Below the pieces are notes generated by a model. The model had not been told where the DNA came from, ran no database searches, and saw nothing but the letters and a program-made list of their open reading frames with translations. The position numbers and the translations under genes are program-made. A stretch of 52,499 nt of DNA from Ruminococcus sp. (GTDB lineage: Bacteria; Bacillota; Clostridia; Lachnospirales; Lachnospiraceae). The DNA lies in assembly GCA_013911065.1 (NCBI GenBank), contig JACERV010000034.1:1-52499 (forward strand), written 5' to 3'. How positions within the stretch are numbered: position 1 is the stretch's first letter; each line of letters begins with the position of its first letter. Positions 25,085 through 31,631 of this stretch are shown here, piece by piece.

Positions 25085-25186
25085 TCTAAAATTAAAACAC
25101 TGTACCATAATGTCATATTATGATACGTTTTTTGAATTCTTATGTTATGATAAAAAGATCGAAGAAATACCAGGGGAGAATTATTT

Positions 25187-27871
25187 TTGGAAGCAAACGG
25201 AAAAAAACAGTTGATAGTGGGAATCCTGGCTCATGTGGACGCAGGAAAAACAACTTTATCAGAGAGTATGTTATATGTCAGCGGAAGTATCCGGAAGCTG
25301 GGGCGGGTAGACCACCAGGATGCATTTCTGGACACGTATGAGCTGGAGCGTGCCAGAGGGATTACAATATTCTCCAAGCAGGCAGTGTTTTCCTGGAAGG
25401 ACATGGACATTACGCTGCTTGATACGCCTGGGCATGTAGACTTTTCCGCAGAGATGGAGCGCACTCTCCAGGTGCTGGATTATGCCATTCTTGTGATAAG
25501 CGGAGCGGATGGTGTACAGGGGCATACCACTACACTTTGGCGTCTGCTGAAACGGTATCAGATTCCAGTTTTTGTGTTTGTAAACAAAATGGATCAGGAG
25601 GGAACCAATCGGGAAGTTATTCTGGAAGAGCTGAAGAAACGTCTGGGGGACGGCTGTGTTGATTTCAGCAGAATTTCTACTATGGGGCAGGGTGATGAAG
25701 AATGGTTTGAAGAACTTGCCATGTGCCAGGAGGAATTGCTGGAGGAGTATCTTGGGACAGGACATATAAAGATGGATTCTGTGAAAGAAGCAATCAAGGA
25801 CAGGAAGGTATTTCCCTGCTATTTTGGCTCGGCTCTTCATGCAGAGGGCGTGGAGGAATTGCTGGAAGGTTTGCGGGAGTATACAAGGAACAAGACCTAC
25901 CCATCTGATTTTGGTGCAAAGGTTTATAAGATTGCCCGGGATGAGCAGGGAAACAGGCTGACTTATCTGAAAGTCACAGGGGGAATCCTTAAAGTGAAGG
26001 ACATACTTCCGGATATAGAGGAAAAAGTAAATCAGATCCGCATTTATTCCGGCTCAAAATATGAAACTGTGCAGGAAGTGGCAGCAGGCGGAGTCTGTGC
26101 CGCCGCAGGGCTTAACAATACTTATCCGGGACAGGGAATCGGTGGGGAAGAGGGACTGGATATGTTTATTTTGGAGCCGGTTCTTACCTATCAGGTACAG
26201 CTTCCCCCGGAGTGTGACGTGCACCGCATGCTGCAAAATCTGAGACAACTGGAGGAAGAAGAGCCTCAGCTGCACATTCTCTGGGAAGAGCAGCTGGGAG
26301 AAATCCATGCACAGTTGATGGGTGAGGTGCAGACGGAGATATTAAAAAGTATCATTTTGGAGCGGTTTGGAGTTTGTGTGGAATTTGGTACGGGGAATAT
26401 TGTATACAAAGAAACTATAGAAGGCTCCATAGAGGGTGTGGGACATTTTGAACCTCTGCGTCACTATGCAGAAGTACATCTTTTGCTGGAGGAGGGGGAG
26501 CAGGGACATGGACTTCAGTTTGCGGCAGACTGCAGCGAGGATATGCTGGACCGGAACTGGCAGCGGCTGATTCTCACCCATTTGGAAGAAAAAGAACACA
26601 GGGGAGTGCTGACAGGTTCTGGGATTACAGATATGAAAATCACGTTGATTGCTGGGCGGGCCCACCTTAAGCACACAGAAGGAGGAGATTTCCGTCAGGC
26701 GACTTACCGGGCAGTACGCCAGGGCCTGAAAAAAGCGAAAAGTGTCCTGTTGGAGCCCTATTATGAGTTCCGTCTGGAAGTTCCTTCAGAGAATATAGGC
26801 CGCACCATGTCGGATATTCAGAAAATGTACGGAAGCTTTGAGCAGCCTGAAGTGGACGGAGAGCTGTCTATCCTTACAGGGACGGTGCCGGTATCTACCA
26901 TGAGGGGGTATCAGACAGAGCTGCTTTCCTATACAGGAGGACGAGGCAGGATGTTCTGCAGCCTGAAAGGGTACATGCCGTGCCATAATGCAGAGGAAGT
27001 GATCGAACAAACAGGATACGATTCAGAAGCAGATGCTGAGAATCCTACAAGTTCCGTCTTTTGCGCACATGGTGCAGGATTTGTTGTGAAATGGAATCAG
27101 GTGGAGGAGTATATGCATGTGGAGAGTCCTCTCAGACTGCAGGTATCAAAGCAGGAGGAACAACTATATGAGCCGCCTGTATCTGTTTCACGTATAGAGT
27201 TGACTCAGGAAGAACTGGATGCCATTTATAGAAAGACTCCGGACCCGGTGCGAAGAAAACAATCCAACGGTCCCGTGATCATAAAGGCGCCGGAAAAGGG
27301 AAAGCCTGACGGTAAGTGGGAAGAACGGGAGAAAGAGAAGAAAACCAGGGAAGAATATCTGCTGGTAGACGGGTATAACATTATTTTCGCCTGGGAAGAG
27401 TTAAAAGAACTGGCGGAGGTAAATATTGAAGGTGCCAGAGATAAACTAATGGATATACTATGCAATTATCAGGGATATCGGAAATGTACTGTAATTCTTG
27501 TGTTTGATGCTTATAGAGTAGAAGGGAATTTAGGAAAAGTTCAAAAATACCACAACATTATTGTAGTGTACACAAAAGAAGCAGAGACGGCAGACCAGTA
27601 TATTGAAAAAACGGTCCGCAATATGGGCAGAAAATACGACGTTACGGTAGCCACCTCCGATGCACTGGAACAAATCATCATCATGGGTCAGGGAGCACAG
27701 CGCCTTTCTGCGGCAGGGCTGAAAGAAGAGGTAGAGCTGATGCTGAAAGAAATACGGAGTGAATATTTGGGCAGACCGGCTGAAGACAGGAATTATCTGT
27801 TTGACTATCTGACTGAGGACCTGGCGAAAGAGATGGAGAGCGTGAGATTAGGGGCAAAAAAGAAATTTTGA
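25187..27871 (+). CDS. TetM/EF-G-like translational GTPase fused to a YacP/Rae1-type NYN endoribonuclease domain
   Basis: An 894-aa fusion. Residues 1-660 follow ribosomal-protection/EF-G architecture: G1 AHVDAGKTT (15-23), ARGITI, G3 DTPGHVDF (from 79), G4 NKMD (133-136), then domains II-V ending GRGRMFCSLKGYMPC. Residues about 700-722 are a charged linker. Residues 723-870 match the NYN/PIN-like YacP (Rae1) domain: LLVDGYNIIF (D728), VFDAYR (D774), ETADQYIEK (D803), VATSDALEQ (D825), a complete acidic site. Rae1 cleaves mRNA in the ribosomal A site, where TetM/EF-G also bind. The domain IV loop reads HTEGGDFRQATY, without TetM's SPVST, so tetracycline protection is doubtful. TTG start, with GGGGAG 8 nt upstream. 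The stop lies in a dispersed repeat. Confidence 0.88.
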   Translation: MEANGKKQLIVGILAHVDAGKTTLSESMLYVSGSIRKLGRVDHQDAFLDTYELERARGITIFSKQAVFSWKDMDITLLDTPGHVDFSAEMERTLQVLDYAILVISGADGVQGHTTTLWRLLKRYQIPVFVFVNKMDQEGTNREVILEELKKRLGDGCVDFSRISTMGQGDEEWFEELAMCQEELLEEYLGTGHIKMDSVKEAIKDRKVFPCYFGSALHAEGVEELLEGLREYTRNKTYPSDFGAKVYKIARDEQGNRLTYLKVTGGILKVKDILPDIEEKVNQIRIYSGSKYETVQEVAAGGVCAAAGLNNTYPGQGIGGEEGLDMFILEPVLTYQVQLPPECDVHRMLQNLRQLEEEEPQLHILWEEQLGEIHAQLMGEVQTEILKSIILERFGVCVEFGTGNIVYKETIEGSIEGVGHFEPLRHYAEVHLLLEEGEQGHGLQFAADCSEDMLDRNWQRLILTHLEEKEHRGVLTGSGITDMKITLIAGRAHLKHTEGGDFRQATYRAVRQGLKKAKSVLLEPYYEFRLEVPSENIGRTMSDIQKMYGSFEQPEVDGELSILTGTVPVSTMRGYQTELLSYTGGRGRMFCSLKGYMPCHNAEEVIEQTGYDSEADAENPTSSVFCAHGAGFVVKWNQVEEYMHVESPLRLQVSKQEEQLYEPPVSVSRIELTQEELDAIYRKTPDPVRRKQSNGPVIIKAPEKGKPDGKWEEREKEKKTREEYLLVDGYNIIFAWEELKELAEVNIEGARDKLMDILCNYQGYRKCTVILVFDAYRVEGNLGKVQKYHNIIVVYTKEAETADQYIEKTVRNMGRKYDVTVATSDALEQIIIMGQGAQRLSAAGLKEEVELMLKEIRSEYLGRPAEDRNYLFDYLTEDLAKEMESVRLGAKKKF

Positions 27872-27945
27872 GAATATTCTGAAAACGGAGAGCAAAAGGG
27901 TCAGTCCCTTTTCAAAAGGGACAGTCCCCTTTTTACCTCTCCTTT
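27865..27945 (+). repeat. Dispersed palindromic repeat, copy 2
   Basis: Bases 27865-27908 repeat 177-221 with one mismatch. Here the element continues with AAAAGGGTCAGTCCCTTTT and AAAAGGGACAGTCCCCTTTTT, each a small palindrome. The stop codon of the GTPase-NYN gene (27869-27871) lies inside the repeat, so the element abuts or formed the gene's end. The second palindrome with its T-run could act as terminator for that gene. GGGACAGTCCCC-type palindromes are, to my knowledge, common repeats in Lachnospiraceae genomes. Confidence 0.75.
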
Positions 27946-28075: not shown

Positions 28076-28876
28076 TTGCTGACGATTAACAATTATGTGA
28101 AAGCAAAATCCCTGGAGGAGGCTTACAAGCTGAATCAGGCCAGAAATGCCCGCGTTATGGGCGGCATGATGTGGATGAGGCTGGGAAATGCGAAGGTACA
28201 GACGGTGATAGATTTATCAGATCTGGGATTAGACCAGATTGAAGAAACGAATCATGTGTTCCGCATCGGAGCTATGTGCACGCTGCGGCAATTAGAACTT
28301 CATGAAGGACTTAAGGAGATGTATGGGGATGCCATTGCGGAATCTGTCCGTCACATCGTGGGGGTGCAGTTCAGGAACCAGGCAACCGTAGGAGGAAGTG
28401 TTTACGGCAGGTTTGGATTTTCTGATGTGCTGACCTGCCTTTTGGCACTGGATACATTTGTAGAATTATATAATGGCGGTACAATCCGCCTGTCCGAATT
28501 TATAAACCGGAAACGGGACAAGGATATTCTCATATCAATTGTTATAAGAAAAAGTAGTAGGAAACTTAGATATGACTCCATCCGCCAGACAAAGACGGAT
28601 TTTCCGGTGCTGGCATGTGCGGTTGTAACCGGGCTGGTTCATGGAAAAGAGACATGGTATTTTTCAGTTGGAGCAAGGCCGATGAAGGCGGCGGTTCTGG
28701 AAAAGGAATGGCAGATTCCGAGGGATATTTCCAGTGAACAGTTAGAAGCTTATGCGAAAGAAGCGGCGGCAGATTTTACTTACGGGTCAAATATGCGGGG
28801 AAGTGCCGAATACCGAAGGCACTTGGCGGAAGTTCTGATTCTGCGCGGGATACGCTCAATCTTGACGGAGGAATAA
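28076..28876 (+). CDS. Molybdenum hydroxylase (xanthine dehydrogenase family), FAD-binding subunit
   Basis: A 266-aa FAD-binding subunit. ARVMGGMMWMRLGNAK corresponds to the first FAD loop, DLSDLGLDQIEE and IGAMCTLRQLE follow the family pattern, and the second loop is QFRNQATVGGSVYGRFGFSDV. The C-terminal CO-dehydrogenase flavoprotein domain starts near residue 165. It passes electrons from the Fe-S subunit to an acceptor. The start is TTG with AAGGAG 7 nt upstream; no better ATG exists. It is the first gene of a three-gene operon with 2-bp spacing to the next. The substrate could be xanthine, another purine or another N-heterocycle. Confidence 0.9.
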   Translation: MLTINNYVKAKSLEEAYKLNQARNARVMGGMMWMRLGNAKVQTVIDLSDLGLDQIEETNHVFRIGAMCTLRQLELHEGLKEMYGDAIAESVRHIVGVQFRNQATVGGSVYGRFGFSDVLTCLLALDTFVELYNGGTIRLSEFINRKRDKDILISIVIRKSSRKLRYDSIRQTKTDFPVLACAVVTGLVHGKETWYFSVGARPMKAAVLEKEWQIPRDISSEQLEAYAKEAAADFTYGSNMRGSAEYRRHLAEVLILRGIRSILTEE

Positions 28877-28878
28877 TT

Positions 28879-29346
28879 ATGACGGTGGAATTTATATTAA
28901 ATGGGAAAAAGGCGGCTGCAGAGGCCGCAGGGGATACGCTGCTTCTCGATGCCTTGAGAGGCTTAGGATGTCATAGTGTGAAATGTGGCTGCGAGACGAC
29001 CAACTGCGGACTGTGTACTGTCTGGATTAATGGAAAGTCACGTCTTTCCTGCTCTGTACTGGCATTGAGCGTAGAGGGGCAGGAAATTACGACCCTGGAA
29101 GGCGTGAAGGAAGAAGCAGAGGAATTTGGTAAATTTCTGGCAAACGAGGGTGCGGAGCAGTGCGGTTTTTGTTCCCCCGGCTTTATCATGAATGTACTTG
29201 CCATGATGCGTGAGCTGGACAATCCAAGTGTGGAAGAAATCAAAGAGTATCTTGCAGGAAACCTGTGCAGGTGCACCGGTTATATGGGACAGCTTCGGGC
29301 TATCCGAAAATATCTGGAGCAGAAGAAAGAGGAGGTGCTTTCATGA
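28879..29346 (+). CDS. Molybdenum hydroxylase, 2Fe-2S subunit
   Basis: A 155-aa iron-sulfur subunit with two 2Fe-2S clusters: a plant-ferredoxin-type domain (CGCETTNCGLC at about residues 35-45 with a further Cys near 58) and an all-helical domain (CGFCSPG near 95, CRCTGY near 130). It moves electrons from the molybdenum centre to the FAD subunit. ATG follows the FAD subunit stop by 2 bp, and its own stop overlaps the next start by 4 bp. The order FAD, Fe-S, Mo is typical of Clostridia. Confidence 0.95.
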   Translation: MTVEFILNGKKAAAEAAGDTLLLDALRGLGCHSVKCGCETTNCGLCTVWINGKSRLSCSVLALSVEGQEITTLEGVKEEAEEFGKFLANEGAEQCGFCSPGFIMNVLAMMRELDNPSVEEIKEYLAGNLCRCTGYMGQLRAIRKYLEQKKEEVLS

Positions 29347-31631
29347 GAGTGGTAAACCAGTCTGTGCCGAAGGTGGACAGCCAGGCACTGGTGACAGGAA
29401 AAGCAGTATATACGGATGATCTGGCGCCGGCAGACTGTCTGATTGTAAAAGTAATGAGAAGCCCTCATGCCCATGCACTGATTCAGGATATCAATCTGAC
29501 CAGGGCACTGGCTGTTCCGGGAATTGAATGTATTCTGACATATGAGGACTGCCCGGATAAAAGGTTTACAATGGCAGGCCAGTCCTACCCGGAGCCGAGT
29601 CCGTATGACAGATTGATTTTAGACCAGCGTGTCAGATATGTTGGAGATGCGGTGGCAATTGTAGCGGGAAACAGCAAGGAAGCTGTAGACAAGGCAATGA
29701 AGCTGATCAAAGTAAAATATGAAGTATTAGAACCTCTGCTGGATTTCCGCAGGGCGAAGGACAATGCTATTTTGATTCATCCGGAAGAAAACTGGAAGAG
29801 TCTTTGTCCGGTCGGCGCTGATAATAAGAGAAACCTTTGTGCCCATGATGAGGATGCCTCAGGGGATATCGAGGCTGTGCTGGCATCCTGTGAGTATGTG
29901 GTTGACAGGACCTACCATACAAAAGCAAACCAGCAGGCTATGATGGAGACTTTCCGTACCTATACTCATTTAGATACCTACGGAAGATTAAATATTGTAT
30001 CTTCTACCCAGGTTCCATTCCATGTACGCCGGATTCTGGCAAATGCGCTGGATGTGCCAAAGTCTAAGATCCGCGTTATCAAACCTAGAATCGGCGGTGG
30101 ATTCGGGGCAAAACAGACTGTGGTTTCCGAAGTGTATCCGGCACTAGTCACCTGGAAAACCGGAAAACCAGCAAAAATTATCTATACCCGTGAGGAATCG
30201 TTTATTGCCTCTTCTCCCCGTCATGAGATGGAGGTCCATGTCCGTGTCGGTGCAGATAAGGATGGGATTATAAAAGGCATTGATGTCTACACTCTGTCCA
30301 ATACCGGGGCATTTGGAGAGCATGGTCCTACTACAGTAGGGCTGTCGGGGCACAAGTCTATCCCTCTGTACGGGAAAGCAGAAGCTTTCCGTTTTATTTA
30401 TGATGTAGTTTATACAAATGTGATGTCAGCAGGGGCTTACCGTGGTTACGGAGCCACCCAGGGAATTTTTGCGGTAGAATCTGCTGTAAATGAACTGGCA
30501 GACCAGCTTGGCATGGATCCGGTTGTCTTGCGTGAAATCAATATGGTAAAAGAAGGCCAGACAATGCCTGCTTATTATGGGGAAACAGCAAATAGCTGCG
30601 CTCTGGACCGCTGCCTGGAACGTGCAAAGAAGATGATAGACTGGGATAATAAATATCCCTGCCGTGATATGGGGAACGGAAAAGTCCGCAGTGTGGGTGT
30701 AGCTATGGCGATGCAGGGTTCTGGTATTTCTGCTCTTGATACTGCTGCCGTGGGTATAAAAATTAATGATGATGGTTTCTACAGTCTGATGGTGGGTGCT
30801 ACAGACATGGGAACCGGAAGTGATACAATACTGGCACAGATGGCCGCAGAGTGCCTGGAATGTGAAATGGAGGATATCATCGTACATGGTGTGGATACAG
30901 ACTCTTCTCCTTACGATTGTGGTTCCTATGCATCCAGCACCACCTATGTAACCGGAACAGCCGTGGTGAAAACCTGTGAGACCCTGCGGGAAAAGATTTG
31001 TGCGAAAGGCGCTGTATACTTAGGATGTTCCCCGGAGGATGTGGAGTTTGACGGAGAAAAGGTTTTAAACCTGAAAACAGGTGAAAGCATATCCAGACAG
31101 GAAATTGGCAACCGGGTTATGTGTAATAATGAAGAAGCCTTATACGCCAGTGAAGCCTTTACATCTCCGGTATCTCCGCCGCCGTTTATGGTTGGAATGG
31201 CAGAGGTGGAGATAGATAAAGAAACAGGCCAGCTCGAATTGATTGATTATGCCTCAGTTGTGGACTGCGGAACTGTAGTAAACCCGAATCTGGCAAGAGT
31301 TCAGGCTGAGGGCGGGATTGCCCAGGGAATCGGCATGGCACTCTACGAAGATGTTGTATATAGCGAAAAAGGAAAAAATTACAGTAACTCCTTTATGCAG
31401 TACAAGATACCAAGCCGCCTGGATGTAGGTGAAATCCGTGTTGAATTTGAAAGCAGCTATGAGCCAACCGGGCCGTTTGGAGCAAAATCCATTGGAGAGA
31501 TTGTAATTAACACCCCCCCTCCGGCCATTGCGAATGCGGTACAAAATGCAACCGGAGTGCTGATAAGGGAACTGCCTGTTACAGCTGAAAAAATCTATTG
31601 GGGGATACAGGAAAAGAAACAGGGCTTATAA
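29343..31631 (+). CDS. Molybdenum hydroxylase (xanthine dehydrogenase family), molybdopterin-binding subunit
   Basis: A 762-aa catalytic subunit that hydroxylates a purine or related heterocycle. Motifs: TGKAVYTDDL, IKPRIGGGFGAKQ (Mo cofactor loop), SAGAYRGYGATQG, GATDMGTGSDTILAQ, and PFGAKSIGEI carrying the conserved active-site Glu near the C-terminus. The frame opens further upstream (29265), but ATG 29343 has GGAGGTG 8 nt before it and starts at the family's usual place. Xanthine dehydrogenase is a good guess given the PucG/PucR genes about 15 kb away, but no cofactor-insertion or other purine genes adjoin it. Confidence 0.92.
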   Translation: MRVVNQSVPKVDSQALVTGKAVYTDDLAPADCLIVKVMRSPHAHALIQDINLTRALAVPGIECILTYEDCPDKRFTMAGQSYPEPSPYDRLILDQRVRYVGDAVAIVAGNSKEAVDKAMKLIKVKYEVLEPLLDFRRAKDNAILIHPEENWKSLCPVGADNKRNLCAHDEDASGDIEAVLASCEYVVDRTYHTKANQQAMMETFRTYTHLDTYGRLNIVSSTQVPFHVRRILANALDVPKSKIRVIKPRIGGGFGAKQTVVSEVYPALVTWKTGKPAKIIYTREESFIASSPRHEMEVHVRVGADKDGIIKGIDVYTLSNTGAFGEHGPTTVGLSGHKSIPLYGKAEAFRFIYDVVYTNVMSAGAYRGYGATQGIFAVESAVNELADQLGMDPVVLREINMVKEGQTMPAYYGETANSCALDRCLERAKKMIDWDNKYPCRDMGNGKVRSVGVAMAMQGSGISALDTAAVGIKINDDGFYSLMVGATDMGTGSDTILAQMAAECLECEMEDIIVHGVDTDSSPYDCGSYASSTTYVTGTAVVKTCETLREKICAKGAVYLGCSPEDVEFDGEKVLNLKTGESISRQEIGNRVMCNNEEALYASEAFTSPVSPPPFMVGMAEVEIDKETGQLELIDYASVVDCGTVVNPNLARVQAEGGIAQGIGMALYEDVVYSEKGKNYSNSFMQYKIPSRLDVGEIRVEFESSYEPTGPFGAKSIGEIVINTPPPAIANAVQNATGVLIRELPVTAEKIYWGIQEKKQGL

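Follow-up and report, generated by a model that had tools for sequence, protein, structure and literature searches.

An EF-G/TetM-like GTPase fused to a Rae1-type nuclease seems to have replaced stand-alone rae1 in most of the Lachnospiraceae genomes that carry it

In a 52,499-nucleotide stretch of Ruminococcus sp. DNA (contig JACERV010000034.1 of assembly GCA_013911065.1; hereafter the window), one uninterrupted open reading frame of 894 codons, running on the forward strand from a TTG at 25187 to the last stop base at 27871, encodes an EF-G/Tet-like GTPase joined through a linker to a C-terminal NYN_YacP (Rae1-type) nuclease. This architecture had been described in a sequence-only reading of the same DNA, and our analysis confirmed it. 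In all but one of the fusion-bearing genomes examined for it, stand-alone rae1 is missing from its usual place, and the fusion therefore seems to have replaced it. On balance we favor the view that the protein is a GTPase-tethered Rae1, which would enter ribosomes with an empty A site and cut the mRNA, and that its main role lies elsewhere than in drug protection. The joining of the two parts is not a chance event, as 481 of 489 pattern-matching stretches in a contig collection (genome_contigs) encode relatives.

The N-terminal part bears the signature of a translational GTPase of the EF2 family. Its G domain (residues 8-233, 25208..25885; Pfam GTP_EFTU, expectation value (E) 6e-54) contains the P-loop AHVDAGKTT, RGITI, DTPGH with its His, and NKMD; the GTPase motifs are thus present, but the earlier statement that they are complete within the first 140 residues does not hold, a G5-like SAL being located at 215-217. 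All EF-G-like domains from G to V can be recognized: domain III (residues 330-401, 26174..26389; Pfam EFG_III), domain IV (404-518, 26396..26740; EFG_IV), domain V (520-601, 26744..26989; EFG_C) and domain II (243-312, 25913..26122), the last of which is weak by hidden Markov model (EF-G_D2, 21.4 bits against a Pfam cut-off of 27) and folded in the predicted model. This model matches TetM (3j9y), and the best solved-structure match of the protein is TetO (E 8.8e-81). A C-terminal extension with SVFC..G...V.W (618-645, 27038..27121) precedes a linker of 63 residues (659-721, 27161..27349), which is charged, as had been noticed before, and also predicted to be disordered, judging from its composition and from predicted local distance difference test (pLDDT) values below 50 at residues 659-673 and 683-719. 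Linker length is 60-198 residues, with a median of 72.5, in 116 of the 118 fused rows of the alignment (which stand for 116 distinct proteins, as two genomes were entered twice). The nuclease domain occupies residues 723-887 (27353..27847), and Pfam places NYN_YacP at 725-887 of the same chain as the GTPase (E 3.8e-54, 183.6 bits against a cut-off of 24.6). Because the structural matches of the model (VIA-align) are EF-G-like chains spanning residues 1-624 only, the NYN relationship rests on sequence, which also matches PDB 5mq9 (YacP) at E 8e-28. The four nuclease Asp residues stand exactly where they had been claimed; D728 is invariant in all 118 rows, as are K21, T60, H83, N133, K134 and D136 of the GTPase, and D774, D803 and D825 are kept in 117, with one gap.

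Where the nuclease occurs on its own, its gene has a characteristic position. Seven of ten stand-alone NYN loci in the family show the order cysS-mrnC-rlmB-rae1 or a fitting part of it (L007, L151-L156), no such neighbor being found within the stretch examined at the other three (L006, L013, L157), and Clostridioides difficile shows this group too, extended by thyX. Neither these four companions of rae1 (cysS, mrnC, thyX, rlmB) nor secE occurred at any of 106 fused loci, for which about 1.5 kb or as much as 6 kb of flank was inspected. In the source genome, cysS-mrnC-rlmB is followed after 44 nucleotides by a sigma-factor-like gene, and the rae1 slot is empty; rae1 lies between rlmB and the sigma-like gene in genome G099, and is accompanied there by one further gene in G024. 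The fusion provides the only NYN_YacP match in the source assembly (95.6% complete), and no stand-alone yacP, whose possible absence had been raised by the sequence-only reading, was found there. Among 30 other fused genomes, picked by hand, no rae1 was found around rlmB in 29; the sigma-like gene came next in 15 of these empty loci, and in 4 an upstream mrnC was the sole marker.

The fusion is widespread across the family, as had been expected. NYN_YacP was found in 264 of 299 genomes of the source family (Lachnospiraceae, judged from named relatives), and frame length was at least 700 amino acids in 242 of them, 445-690 in 5 and below 300 in 17; a fusion was called in this survey by the 700-amino-acid threshold, and the joined sequence was read for the 118 rows. 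One of the five intermediate frames is a frameshift, and four of the short ones (G095, G256, G042, G128) resemble contig breaks or frameshifts of the fusion, leaving 13 stand-alone. The best 80 of the 481 relatives from the contig collection match nearly end to end; these near-complete fusions come from Faecalicatena, Muricomes, Blautia, Mediterraneibacter, Robinsoniella and others, mostly Lachnospiraceae. At the level of the class, NYN_YacP occurs in 220 of 342 genomes; among the matches listed, many families have it in frames of fusion length, other families as a stand-alone protein. Of 329 genomes drawn across the phylum, 41 matched the GTPase body at E of 1e-60 or below, with fused, stand-alone and Tet-type proteins pooled. 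We rejected the possibility of a mobile or phage gene, as plasmid-collection matches to the NYN half were few (23 of 72,556 records); several of the 20 that were listed are very large. A phage collection contains two near-full-length fusions, covering 94 and 96% of the query, on MT835563.1 and MT835514.1, unannotated faecal 'Bacteriophage sp.' contigs, which could be prophage-borne or misassigned chromosome.

The GTPase half shares domain order, fold and GTPase motifs with the acquired proteins Tet(M), Tet(O), Tet(S), Tet(Q) and TetB(P), yet on alignment and tree it is placed outside them. They have about 28-34% identity to it, different tip loops, neither the SVFC extension nor a nuclease, and a clade of their own. 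Of the loops at the domain IV tip, loop I (GVGHFEPLRHYAEVH, residues 417-431, 26435..26479) is typical of the subfamily and loop III is GRAHLKHTEGGDFR (490-503, 26654..26695). Loop I of the form GHFEPLRHYAEVH, loop III of the form GRAHxKHTEGGDFR and the SVFC extension are common to fused and stand-alone members, with variation in some stand-alone rows; the extension was not seen in the aligned Tet and EF-G rows. Tet rows carry SPVSTP (SPASTP in TetB(P)) and EF-G carries HEVDSS at the corresponding place, where the fusion has HLKHTEGGDFR, so that the loop SPVST is missing, as had been pointed out. Pro509 of TetM, which sits in the drug site (PMC8161019), aligns with K495, a Lys in 117 of 118 fused rows and Gln in one, and the tip His of EF-G aligns with H493, kept in all 118. 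EF-G further resembles the fusion in fold and in its expected binding to the factor site, and differs in being encoded separately, the source genome having EF-G-sized frames of 709 and 705 amino acids. The fusion reached 443.6 bits in the NCBIfam model tet_protect, three relatives 374-422 and the Tet(M) control 879.8, with a cut-off of 775; in the EF-G equivalog model it scored 329.4 bits, under the cut-off of 659.4. A plain Tet label was rejected on the tet_protect score, the tip loops and the position outside the Tet clade. The earlier warning that such a label may mislead was therefore justified. Among the relatives, WP_306784676.1 of Agathobacter rectalis does bear a resistance name, 'TetM/TetW/TetO/TetS family', and one from Monoglobus is annotated as 'translation factor GTPase family protein'.

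A careful tree of the GTPase was built from 44 hand-chosen rows, namely 13 fused (of the 118), 14 stand-alone, 6 Tet, 8 of a second chromosomal group, 1 intermediate and 2 EF-G; several stand-alone rows, among them the Ligilactobacillus salivarius protein L141, were left out. The fused rows form one clade (100/98) lying within a clade of fused and stand-alone orthologs (100/99), and the Tet proteins form a separate one (100/100), with the second chromosomal group also apart. The same subfamily includes orthologs that stand alone and are named 'translation factor GTPase' (L. salivarius pMP118, Paenibacillus, Clostridia), L. salivarius being placed by a quick tree only; they have loop I similar to GHFEPLRHYAEVH, loop III of the HTxGGDFR type and an SVFC-like extension, and differ from the fusion in lacking the nuclease. 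The stand-alone GTPase of genome G202 comes out as the closest sister to the fused clade (100/99); G202 has its rae1 in the canonical place and therefore looks like the state before fusion. The main groups agree in a quick tree of 69 rows, in which long branches were flagged. As to the second chromosomal Tet-like group (L276-L280, L282, L284, L132), it has YTMPKPCWAI and mostly HTxPxDF-type loops, appears as sister to the acquired Tet proteins (95/90), and one tested member scored 602 bits in tet_protect, under the cut-off.

The nuclease half resembles Rae1/YacP of Bacillus subtilis (PDB 5mq8, 5mq9) in its NYN domain, by sequence, and in the four Asp residues. The Bacillus protein stands alone and has about 170 amino acids; here the same unit is the C-terminal domain of a GTPase encoded at another locus, and it does not follow rlmB, as stand-alone rae1 does in C. 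difficile and several relatives. B. subtilis Rae1 is described as depending on translation to destabilize mRNAs (PMC10100781). Going beyond what is observed, namely the domain content, the conserved catalytic residues, the relationships with one clade of fused GTPases and the missing rae1, we infer a plausible course of events. The EF-G/TetM-like body would first bind, at the factor site, to ribosomes with a vacant A site (paused, starved or blocked ones), and the domain IV tip, with its own conserved loops, would enter the decoding center. After GTP hydrolysis the body would depart and domain IV would be withdrawn, and the NYN domain, on its flexible tether, could now move into that A site or reach over to a neighboring ribosome. 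Its cut would start mRNA decay and leave a truncated message for ribosome rescue, and the fusion would in this way perform the job of the rae1 lost from these genomes. Our findings agree with the earlier proposal that the fusion could deliver the nuclease to ribosomes that are stalled or blocked by a drug.

It is also possible, and we suggest it tentatively, that the fusion is a one-chain, GTP-gated quality-control nuclease whose GTPase, from a distinct subfamily without a functional description, inspects or clears the A site with its own tip loops and hands it to NYN, cleavage on stalled ribosomes being coupled to GTP hydrolysis, that the stand-alone members are A-site clearing factors, at least some of them mislabeled as tetracycline resistance proteins, and that the fusion replaced free Rae1 in most of the family and in other Clostridia. 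If a GTPase-tethered Rae1 is the right reading, most genomes of the Lachnospiraceae, a major gut group, would rely on a dedicated GTPase, and not on free Rae1, for ribosome-dependent mRNA cleavage, which would offer a handle on how Rae1-type enzymes choose ribosomes, and some resistance entries of the TetM/TetW/TetO/TetS type within the subfamily would probably not represent tetracycline resistance. As the halves are separate in G202 and fused elsewhere, the coupling is directly testable.

A number of observations weigh against a GTPase-tethered Rae1 that took over from the free enzyme. The body and Rae1 are expected at the same A site, and a hand-over would be required. No canonical neighbor was recognized in 10 of the 29 rlmB loci lacking rae1, and the evidence of an empty slot is weaker there for this reason. 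The fused genome G589 keeps a canonical rae1 directly after rlmB, and a second NYN match is listed for each of the fused genomes G418, G478 and G513. In the 69-row tree the L. salivarius body, which occurs alone, is nested among fused rows, which looks like a loss of the nuclease, and its inclusion raises the number of changes required for the fused label from one to two. The tree of NYN domains puts 16 other clostridial Rae1 proteins in one clade (100/97), opposite to the fused and the Lachnospirales stand-alone domains; within the latter side branching is weak, and this tree alone is compatible with a single origin of the fused NYN without showing it. Nor are the halves tightly linked everywhere. 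Within the family, a separate GTPase ortholog does occur in 9 of the 13 genomes with stand-alone NYN and in none of the 35 NYN-negative ones (Fisher p 4e-7), the match in NYN-negative G213 being taken as Tet-like from its E-value alone; the ortholog is absent from G007, G016 and G020, two of which are less than 90% complete, and G068 has another type only. Among the 342 class genomes, 134 have both halves, 7 the GTPase only, 86 NYN only and 115 neither, as counted with self-set E-value and identity bands for GTPase presence and with 23 genomes set aside whose sole matches were Tet-like by these two measures. The link outside the family is accordingly loose, and in non-fused genomes the two halves are weakly associated (14 of 100 against 7 of 122, p 0.04); both p-values ignore kinship, and loss of a fused gene removes both halves together. 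Strict co-dependence is therefore unsupported outside the family: either half can exist on its own, and the tie between them is closest in the lineage where they became fused. Neither half is present in 35 of the 299 family genomes, some of them incomplete, and hence the fusion is probably not essential.

Two of the exceptions deserve description in their own right. G589 (L234, L215), with fusion and canonical rae1, lends itself to the question of whether its two nucleases have tasks in common. The gene of L141, on L. salivarius pMP118, adjoins rpsN (S14), is annotated as TetM-type resistance and is found on megaplasmids, 33 Ligilactobacillus records matching at 1e-90; the tip loop of its product has lost both H493 and K495.

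The main rival to a GTPase-tethered Rae1 is intrinsic protection against tetracycline or another A-site drug, which the body would dislodge like TetM with assistance of the nuclease, as proposed by Atkinson 2015. Apart from the match to TetO and the resistance name given by automatic annotation, it finds a precedent in Btoyo_0322, a chromosomal TetM-like protein of Bacillus toyonensis which confers tetracycline resistance, its knock-out lowering the minimal inhibitory concentration from 16 to 1 (PMC5209696); this protein may or may not belong to the subfamily of the fusion. A rescue role of this kind, part of the earlier interpretation, is weakened by the tip loops, with SPVST missing and Lys in the place of Pro509, by the tet_protect score (real Tet(M), 880 bits) and by the position outside the Tet clade. 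The fusion is, moreover, present in most sampled family genomes and has no constant neighbors: the next commonest family occurs at 20 of 80 loci, and no neighbor family at more than 2 of 12 stand-alone GTPase loci. No upstream leader or attenuator was seen when five upstream regions were aligned, unlike annotated tet(M), which has a leader peptide. An L. salivarius strain reported to carry tet(M) and tet(L) was tetracycline-intermediate (PMC12502609), but which protein is meant is uncertain, and this is not decisive. Taken together, we regard drug protection as unlikely to be the main role.

Two further explanations appear to us quite improbable. One is that the protein serves in maturation or turnover of rRNA or tRNA, the GTPase docking on ribosomes or their precursors. 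Such maturation was proposed for YacP-like NYN proteins by Anantharaman and Aravind, according to Atkinson (PMC4342817). The neighbors of rae1 in unfused genomes point the same way: mrnC acts in 23S maturation and RlmB methylates 23S rRNA. This is countered by the translation-dependent action of B. subtilis Rae1 on mRNAs and by the departure of the fused gene from the rlmB operon in the genomes tested. The other would have a translation GTPase and an unrelated Rae1 carry out separate jobs on a chain joined by accident and kept since rae1 lost its own gene. It is compatible with the occurrence of either half without the other and with the long and variable linker, but it sits poorly with fusion-length frames in so large a part of the family and in many other clostridial families, and with the co-occurrence of the separate halves in most family genomes that have stand-alone NYN. 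A defense-system reading was rejected as well, because the PADLOC match to ThsB1 over the linker and part of NYN was weak (20.6 bits) and taken as chance.

The earlier interpretation as a whole is thus partly supported. Unknown to the earlier reader, a fusion of Tet with a YacP-like NYN domain in "ten species of clostridiales" has been in print since 2015 (Atkinson 2015, PMC4342817), with a guess at RNase-linked resistance. The window protein is very probably of this kind, a likeness judged by architecture; the proteins were filed there as Tet, whereas the body studied here is placed outside the Tet clade and its nuclease has apparently replaced rae1. No functional study of the fusion was found in the full-text literature, in searches partly aimed elsewhere and with most subscription journals outside their coverage. 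What is new here is the count of frames taken as fused (242 of 264 NYN-positive family genomes), the absence of rae1 after rlmB in the source genome and 29 of 30 others, the placement of the GTPase, by tree, alignment and score, in a subfamily that is distinct from the acquired Tet proteins, has tip loops of its own and falls under the NCBI Tet cut-off, and the grouping of the sampled fused GTPases, in the tree, as one clade sister to a genome with both halves separate.

Around the gene itself, a putative ribosome-binding site, AGGGGAG (25172..25178, forward strand), was read from the sequence 8 nucleotides upstream of the TTG. A dispersed repeat, AAAAGGG(T/A)CAGTCCCCTTTT, occurs in the window at 206-225, 27894-27913 and 27914-27933, the latter two just downstream of the gene; three window matches at up to 3 mismatches compare with 0 expected, and the genome contains 9 exact copies of the N-form and 0 of the reversed pattern. 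Directly 3' of the fusion, at 28076-31631, three genes form what by the look of their sequence is a putative molybdenum hydroxylase cluster, apparently unrelated to it.
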